NCBI GenBank assembly: GCA_029976075.1
Contig: JARKNW010000012.1
Coordinates: 1-64,000, forward strand
Direction: 5' to 3'
Origin: Pleomorphomonas sp.
Lineage (GTDB): Bacteria; Pseudomonadota; Alphaproteobacteria; Rhizobiales; Pleomorphomonadaceae
Length of the DNA stretch: 64,000 nucleotides
Made by a program: the position numbers and the translations under genes. The notes under the pieces are model-generated. The model was not told where the DNA came from, made no database searches, and saw only the letters and a program-made list of their open reading frames with translations. Below are positions 15,829 to 18,052 of the stretch, piece after piece. Positions within the stretch are counted from its first letter, which is position 1. Every line of letters begins with the position of its first letter.

Positions 15829-16596
15829 TCAGTCTTGGGCCCGTAGTTCCACCAGAAAGTCGTAGCGCTCGCCGCAATAGTAGGTGCGGGTAAACTCCAC
15901 CGGCGTTCCGTCGGCGGTGAAGCAGCGCCGCTCGGCGACTAGAAGCGGTGCTCCGATCTCGAGGTGAAGCAGGCGGCCGTCCTCCGCGCCGGCCACCGCG
16001 GCGCGCAAGCGTTGCAAAGCTCTGACGGGGCGACGACTCCGCTCAGCCAGCACATCGTAAAGCGAGCCGGTGACCACCTCCGGATCATCGAGGATGTCGG
16101 CCGGCACCACCGCGTGCTCGATGGCCATCGGCATGCCGTCGCCGGTTCTGAGGCGCTTCAAGCGACAGACGCGGGCACCCATCGACAGATGCAGGGCCAT
16201 GATCTCCGCTGGCGAGGCAGGCCCCACCTCCCGACTGATCCAGGTCATGCCCGGCTCGATGCCGCGCGACCGCATGTCTTCCGAGAAGGAAGTAAGTGCC
16301 GACAACGGCTTCTCGACGCGCTCGGCAACCGCCGTCCGGGCACCATGGCGTCGAATCAGCACACCATCGCCGACCAGCGTTTCGATCGCTTTGCGCACCG
16401 ACGTTCGGGAGACGTCGATCGCCTCCGCGAAATCACGTTCGCCAGGCAGAACATCGCCGGTGCCGAGCACATTCTCTGTGATCGCCTGCCGGAGCGCCGT
16501 CGCCAGATCGCGATAGATCACGCCACTCGAATGCCGATCGAGGGCACCGCGAAGAAACTGGATGAGAGGAGATTGGTTCGGCTCGGAGGCTGACAT
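15829..16596 (-). CDS. GntR family transcriptional regulator with UTRA domain
   Basis: VLPGERDFAEAIDVSRTSVRKAIETLVGDGVLIRRHGART winged HTH; C-terminal UTRA-like domain. Confidence 0.93.
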   Translation of the reverse strand: MSASEPNQSPLIQFLRGALDRHSSGVIYRDLATALRQAITENVLGTGDVLPGERDFAEAIDVSRTSVRKAIETLVGDGVLIRRHGARTAVAERVEKPLSALTSFSEDMRSRGIEPGMTWISREVGPASPAEIMALHLSMGARVCRLKRLRTGDGMPMAIEHAVVPADILDDPEVVTGSLYDVLAERSRRPVRALQRLRAAVAGAEDGRLLHLEIGAPLLVAERRCFTADGTPVEFTRTYYCGERYDFLVELRAQD

Positions 16597-16717
16597 GTCT
16601 TGGAATGATCGCGGTTGGGTTCGCCCGATTTAGCAGTTCGGAGCCGAAAGAGAAACACGGCGGAAGTCTCGCGGGCGCTCCGGGATATCAGAGCTGCGAT
16701 CAACGGGGGGCGAGCCT

Positions 16718-17365
16718 TCAATCGCTCCACTTCCTCACCAGCCGATCGGCCCACTCCGGTTCTCCCTTGATTCGGTAGATAGTACCCCGCTGCAGTCCCG
16801 TCATCTTTGCTATATGGGCCATGGGTCGCCCCTCGGCGATCAGTCGTCGGACCTCGACAAGCTTTCCGGCATCGAAGGACGGCGCCTTCCCTCGATATTT
16901 TTGAGGCTGGGTCTGGCGGGTTCGCTTGATGCCCGCCGCGCGGGCCGCCAGTCCCCCCTCAGGTTCGATCTCTGCGAAGTGCGAGAGAAGGGCGACGAGC
17001 AGTTCGTTTTGAATGCGATCCACGGCGCCACCGCTGGAACCACCCCTGAACACCAGGCTGCCGATCACCGTCCTGATCGTGACTCCCCTTGCCAGGAAGG
17101 TACGCACCGTATTGCTCAAGTCCGCCATGTTGTGACCAAGACGATCGAGGGCACGAACGATGAGTTCGTCGCCTTCGCCGAGGTAACCAAGGAGACGCCG
17201 GGCCTGCGGTCTGCCCTGGAAGGGCACCTTGCCGCCGACGATACCCGCATCAATGAAGGCTTGGTCAAACTCAAGCCCCTCGGCCTCCGCCATGATCTCC
17301 TGGTGGGCCGCGACCAGACCCTCGGTGCTGGTTCGCCCATAGAACGCACGCCGGCTTCTTCGCAT
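16718..17365 (-). CDS. serine recombinase (resolvase/invertase family)
   Basis: YGRTSTEGL catalytic Ser motif; FQGRPQARRLL; RALDRLGHNMADL; C-terminal HTH GRPMAHIAKMTGLQRGTIYRIK. Confidence 0.88.
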   Translation of the reverse strand: MRRSRRAFYGRTSTEGLVAAHQEIMAEAEGLEFDQAFIDAGIVGGKVPFQGRPQARRLLGYLGEGDELIVRALDRLGHNMADLSNTVRTFLARGVTIRTVIGSLVFRGGSSGGAVDRIQNELLVALLSHFAEIEPEGGLAARAAGIKRTRQTQPQKYRGKAPSFDAGKLVEVRRLIAEGRPMAHIAKMTGLQRGTIYRIKGEPEWADRLVRKWSD

Positions 17366-17394
17366 CGAACGCCCCCAAGCTCGACCGGTTGATG

Positions 17395-17458
17395 TGTCAT
17401 TATATCAACGCGAATCCATAATGACATGTCATTAGTTTGCACATGATCCTTAATGACA
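17395..17458. promoter_or_regulatory. symmetric array of four 8-bp half-sites forming two abutting 32-bp dyads; candidate res/operator site
   Basis: TGTCATTA-N16-TAATGACA TGTCATTA-N16-TAATGACA at 17395, 17419, 17427, 17451; includes a 16-bp perfect palindrome at 17419-17434. Confidence 0.75.
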
Positions 17459-17820
17459 GATTCCGTGACAGTGAACGCTCTATCGTCCGCAACAGGAGTT
17501 TGTGAACGCACCGCCGGACCGGGTGAACCGCCGACAGATCGCCCGACAGAGACGCGCATTCCCCTGCCTGCGTTATTGGCCGGTGCATCGGGCGTGAACC
17601 AACCAACTCGGATGTCAGCGACTGGAACCTTGACCAGACGGCTTTGCTACATCGGTCGCAAGTCGCCTCCGCGGATCCGGCCCGAATCCCTTCGGTACGA
17701 GCAAGGCCTGCCCGCCAACCTGCGCCTCACGTACCAATCCGCCCCCCTTGAAAGGGAGATAAGCAGAAGCTGGCTTGCCCGAGCAGGTAATAGCTTGATC
17801 AAAAAAGGAAAATTGAGTTT

Positions 17821-17906
17821 TGGTGCCCCAGGCCGGACTCGAACCAGCACGTTCTCGCGAACAACAGATTTTGAGTCTGCCGCGTCTACCATTTCGCCAC
17901 TGGGGC
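17821..17906 (-). tRNA. tRNA-Leu (anticodon CAA)
   Basis: GCCCCAG..CTGGGGC acceptor stem, GGTTCGAGTCC T-arm, GCAGACTCAAAATCTGT anticodon arm, long variable arm, encoded CCA. Confidence 0.95.
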
Positions 17907-18052
17907 AGCGGAGGCGGACTATACCGGCCAGCCATGCGCCGTCAACGGAGAAAGATCAGTTTTTGAAGAGGTTTTTACGTCGACAGCCACGTTTAAGACG
18001 GCGGAAAGGTCCTGTGGATATTGTTCATTGGTCATTTGCCAGGAAACCGATC

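Follow-up and report, generated by a model that had tools for sequence, protein, structure and literature searches.

Two abutting dyads beside a serine recombinase gene at a tRNA-Leu island hotspot: probable accessory subsites of a res site that has lost its crossover site

The window analysed here, by which we mean the whole 64-kb stretch of DNA, carries a gene for a small serine recombinase of the resolvase type that lies, together with two abutting dyads, in a short insertion between a GntR/UTRA regulator gene and a tRNA-Leu(CAA) gene (Table 1). The protein matches the Pfam Resolvase family well over the cut-off (54 bits), its C-terminal HTH_7 match (23.4 bits) falls just below the 23.8 cut-off, and alignment places the nucleophilic-serine motif YGRTST in it. 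By sequence, its best matches in the PDB are Sin (2r0q being the closest) and gamma-delta resolvase. The same genome has one close paralogue (contig C77, 71% identity) and a further two resolvase-domain genes that are more distantly related, and a close copy (73% identity) is found in the same-genus genome G303. Profile scans for close orthologues, two over genome contigs and two over viral contigs, found none among records that may leave out very near genomes.

Table 1. Features at the locus, in window coordinates.
Feature	Position	Strand	Basis or remark
GntR/UTRA regulator gene, chromosomal flank on the insertion's other side	15829..16596	-	syntenic in genus-mates
Insertion of ~1.1 kb with recombinase and sites II-III, between GntR gene and tRNA-Leu	16675..17800	.	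comparison with genus-mates; edges known within ~30 bp
Small serine recombinase (resolvase type), 215 aa	16718..17365	-	Pfam Resolvase match; catalytic and conserved positions substituted
Resolvase subsite III (accessory, gene-proximal)	17395..17426	-	TGTCATTATGGATTCGCGTTGATATAATGACA, minus-strand reading; abuts II as in C77 (31 bp) and distant homologues (31 bp)
Promoter-like -35/-10 (ATGTCA-17-TATAAT) within site III, directed into recombinase gene	17399..17427	-	10/12 consensus matches; 0.2 expected per shuffle
Resolvase subsite II (accessory)	17427..17458	-	TGTCATTAAGGATCATGTGCAAACTAATGACA, minus-strand reading; place and 32-bp length as in C77 site II and ~24 distant homologues
Subsite I (crossover): expected place, 22 bp upstream of II	17481..17508	-	no recognisable site
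tRNA-Leu(CAA), integration hotspot adjoining the insertion	17821..17906	-	ARAGORN

An earlier, sequence-only reading had drawn attention to two abutting 32-bp dyads with four half-sites just upstream of the recombinase start, and this description holds. There are exactly two copies of TGTCATTA-N16-TAATGACA, one at 17395-17426 and the other at 17427-17458; they directly abut, and 100 dinucleotide shuffles produced none (0 expected by chance). All 4 matches to TGTCATTA in the window (0.41 expected) are perfect and are the dyad half-sites themselves, which agrees with the earlier remark that no second copy had been noticed elsewhere in the window. The junction TAATGACATGTCATTA (17419-17434) is indeed a perfect 16-bp palindrome, and 29 bp separate the array from the gene, whose ATG is at 17365. 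When the search was widened to the 5.36-Mb genome, as that reading had proposed, it returned a single further dyad at up to two mismatches, G000:C77:1096-1127, upstream of the paralogous recombinase gene. Of 14 genus genomes compared, this is the only one with matches at up to one mismatch; viral contigs, scanned for exact copies of the abutting dyads, yielded none.

Just upstream of the C77 paralogue, the product of which is 71% identical to the window recombinase, sits a full array composed of site I TGTCATTTTGGCTACTCCCATAGTGACA (28 bp), a 22-bp spacer, site II TGTCATTAAGGGTTGTCTTCTAACAAATGACA (32 bp) and site III TGTCATTGAATGGCGGATATCCATAGTGACA (31 bp). Of 25 homologues at 31-42% identity, about 24 keep this 28-22-32-31 layout, a few being offset by 1-2 bp; these distant homologues, from many families of the order, have half-sites of the TGTCCG type, and the core of their site I is GGTATACC-like. 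When the spacing was kept strictly constant and the left half of site II alone served as the anchor, site I reaches z>3 in 16 of the 25 homologues and site III does so in 19, and the homologues below this value include several offset by 1-2 bp and L028, which is without an array. The earlier reading had tied its proposal to the presence of the array upstream of orthologues, and homologues do carry it, with half-sites that have co-varied. A matrix trained solely on the distant homologues (31-42% identity) ranks the window locus in the predicted register 1st among 127,774 window positions, both for sites II and III and for the whole block. Taken together, the matrix rank and the shared layout identify 17427-17458 as subsite II and 17395-17426 as subsite III. 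Site III of the window measures 32 bp, compared with 31 bp in C77 and the distant homologues, and the four window half-sites are more perfect than those of C77, which is unexpected for a long-dead relic. A separate feature concerns the orientation of site III. In the distant homologues L011-L034, this site is a pair of directly repeated CGGACA motifs separated by about 15 bp, a direct-repeat arrangement that Sin site II shares, and in the TGTCATTA subgroup (window, C77 and G303) it forms an inverted repeat; there is thus an apparent orientation switch of site III within one resolvase family.

In a three-subsite res, the resolvase gene is immediately preceded by sites II and III, which the window has, and a 28-bp site I lies some 5 helical turns farther upstream than II; this site I is present in C77 and most homologues but absent from the window. 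The half-site matrix reaches at best -9.9 near the window array (null median, -7.3), against a score of 32.2 at C77 site I, and the site I matrix gives -4.4 at the expected place, compared with about 20-30 for nearly all real sites and a null 95% value of -1.2. A very weak site I-like stretch does lie exactly at the expected spacing (17481-17508), with a score within the null range. Another site I-like stretch, at 17631-17658, was the window's best in one matrix, ranked 576th in a second and had no adjoining site II, and was rejected. In G303 (L065:6335-6520), the gene-side half of site I alone remains, at exactly 22 bp; similarity to C77 ends at the crossover centre and is followed by a tRNA-Leu 3'-end-like stretch, TTGGTGCCCCCAGGCCGG, with an integrase C-terminal remnant. 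This could be a recombination junction at site I.

The enzyme, too, departs from its family. It deviates at 7 of 45 near-invariant positions (Q17L, S43V, D60G, R78H, V83L, Q142R and A149T), compared with 0-1 in nearly all homologues and 4 in one. The equivalents of the catalytic arginines R8, R45 and R68 are kept, and that of R71 (gamma-delta numbering) is His at residue 78; a contact between R71 and the scissile phosphate has been proposed for Tn3 resolvase (PMC4499144). The C77 and G303 copies, which were compared on another column set than the 45 and differ at 15-18 lineage-specific positions, keep Q17, S43 and R78. From the loss of site I, of the R71-equivalent arginine and of other conserved residues, we infer that recombination in the window is very probably dead. 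The reading frame is intact and the pairwise dN/dS to C77 is about 0.11, so selection acted on the gene through most of its past and may be acting on it today, and any relaxation is recent or partial. Identity to close orthologues is 0.78-0.82 in the DNA-binding domain and 0.70-0.71 in the catalytic part. Across the whole resolvase family, the alignment shows an E helix without the ER..ER arginine pattern of gamma-delta (AERQRILER becoming AQAEATKEA), yet site I is conserved, and catalysis in this family may differ in detail from that of gamma-delta. One homologue, L013, has an in-frame TGA and another, L028, has no recognisable array at the fixed spacing; judged from these two, decay of the system seems to be recurrent.

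The distance from the GntR gene to tRNA-Leu(CAA) is about 80-100 bp in most genus-mates and about 1.2 kb in the window, and three genus-mates (L066, L067 and L075) have inserts of about 9, 13 and 20 kb at the same spot, making tRNA-Leu(CAA) an island hotspot in the genus. At this tRNA, G180 has a 9.3-kb island bounded on either side by a 17-bp repeat of the tRNA 3' end (attL/attR). Its integrase gene lies beside the tRNA and is followed by genes for Rha and SNase, then by a full res and the gene for a resolvase 34-35% identical to that of the window; in C77, an SNase gene abuts site I. Because G180 has an island at the same tRNA spot and C77 shares the adjacency of SNase and site I, the window insert is best read as an island remnant. 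The 1.1-kb insert contains no transposase-sized ORF, no flanking repeats were found within 16560-18000, and six-frame translation of 17459-17822 gave no convincing match to the island proteins compared. In two islands (L004:503-1165 and L066:7041-8372) the SNase gene directly abuts res and resolvase, pointing to a possible conserved SNase-res-resolvase module.

We therefore favor, with a probability of about 0.78, the reading that the dyads represent subsites II and III, the accessory part of the res of a serine resolvase from a tRNA-Leu island, that site I has been lost and recombination is very probably dead, and that autorepression may persist. In intact relatives, a resolvase dimer would bind each of the three subsites, sites II and III would form a regulatory synapse, and site I, 22 bp upstream, would be cut and rejoined; by analogy with SGI1, recombination there would resolve multimers of the island to monomers. 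Loss of site I in the window would have come together with that of most of the island, and the enzyme has lost the R71-equivalent arginine along with other conserved residues. The promoter-like element inside site III, called by consensus match only, leads to the prediction that resolvase binding represses the gene, and such autorepression via sites II and III may still operate. The earlier reading had offered a minimal res site, an autoregulatory operator, or both: the operator part remains plausible, given the -35/-10 pair on the gene's strand inside the array, whereas the minimal res does not stand, as only accessory sites II and III are present. Counted against this reading are the intact frame, the low dN/dS, the very weak site I-like stretch at the expected spacing and the 32-bp site III; we nevertheless consider the window copy probably a relic.

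Several other explanations deserve consideration. The array could be a stand-alone autoregulatory operator, with a former resolvase that has lost catalysis but been retained as a DNA-binding repressor of itself or of other genes. This would fit a promoter-like element overlain by four perfect half-sites, an intact frame and a DNA-binding domain better conserved than the catalytic part, but the genome has no other operator-like dyad except the paralogue's own array, a normal resolvase is also expected to autoregulate, and nothing points to selected retention, so we regard this explanation as unlikely. Exaptation of the former resolvase into a dedicated repressor of transcription, or an action in trans at the res of the paralogous island, seems to us quite unlikely. 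One might instead see a complete and active two-subsite res, Sin-like or minimal, in which II or III is the crossover site, since Sin is the best PDB match and its res has only two dimer sites, and since each dyad is a perfect inverted repeat that could accommodate a dimer. However, the register of both dyads is that of the family's accessory sites II and III, the crossover site of relatives is 28 bp long compared with 32 bp for the window dyads, and the R71 arginine is replaced. In Sin, moreover, site II is a direct repeat with an HU/IHF site between it and site I (PMC2428073), whereas the window dyads abut, and this reading is accordingly very unlikely.

A Hin-like DNA invertase site with its partner elsewhere would accord with the PHROG name 'DNA invertase', a label given to the family of small serine recombinases. 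Invertases act on a pair of 26-bp sites. They also use a Fis enhancer (PMC3798978). Neither a pair of inverted crossover sites nor an invertible segment was found, and an inversion or deletion partner, which had been expected to lie outside the window, did not turn up in the genome assembly, where the only second site is the paralogue's res. Homologues, furthermore, carry conserved three-subsite res arrays, and we hold an invertase to be highly improbable. The idea that the palindromes are coincidental and unrelated to the recombinase is at odds with the zero chance expectation, is refuted by the conserved position before the paralogue and homologues and by the rank of the locus in the distant-homologue matrix, and receives virtually no credence.

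On the favored reading of accessory sites bereft of their crossover site, a puzzling array is explained by a known mechanism: it would be the accessory portion of a recombination site of a familiar type. It also belongs to a widespread, apparently undescribed alphaproteobacterial resolvase family with a rigid 28-22-32-31 res layout, in which the half-sites change together with the protein (TGTCCG versus TGTCATTA). The family is therefore a natural set for examining the co-evolution of DNA-binding specificity and the switch in site III orientation.

Comparison with known systems places the locus among resolvases of the Tn3, gamma-delta and Sin kind, as the resemblance noted earlier between its half-sites and those of Tn3 and gamma-delta had suggested, and the array is predicted to be resolvase-binding DNA. 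Tn3 and gamma-delta share with the window's family a homologous enzyme and a series of three dimer sites (I-II-III), of which III adjoins the gene; their 12-bp half-sites are inverted and likewise start with TGTC. Their differences lie in sites II and III of Tn3, which are 34 and 25 bp, in the window insert having no transposase-sized ORF, in the E-helix arginines of gamma-delta that are absent from the window's family, and in the His at the R71 position and the lack of site I in the window. Sin/resH of Staphylococcus offers the closest solved structure by sequence (2r0q), and its direct-repeat site II is like site III of the distant homologues and not like the inverted site III of the TGTCATTA subgroup; its res comprises two dimer sites and an HU/IHF site, whereas the window's family has three dimer sites. 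In SGI1, the island resolvase has been tested and removes SGI1 multimers, with a res made up of box I (28 bp), 22 bp and box II (PMC12217951). SGI1 res/S027 is, like the window system, an integrated-island resolvase with res upstream of the gene, and the 28-bp box I and 22-bp spacer are as in the family described here, with a centre distance of 51 bp compared with 52 bp (PMC12217951). Box II (30 bp) and box III (25 bp) of SGI1 are 2 bp apart, whereas the window's II and III, both 32 bp long, abut. The res of wild-type SGI1 is split, which leaves boxes II-III alone beside the gene, as in the window (PMC12217951), although the SGI1 res was broken by an integron insertion and its resolvase gene is intact, whereas site I of the window is simply absent and its gene has catalytic changes. 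The G180 (L066) island resolvase shares with the window the integration spot and the gene order from tRNA to resolvase, and has the res geometry of the window's family; it differs in a protein identity of only 34-35% and in residing in a full 9.3-kb island complete with attL/attR, integrase, SNase and site I.
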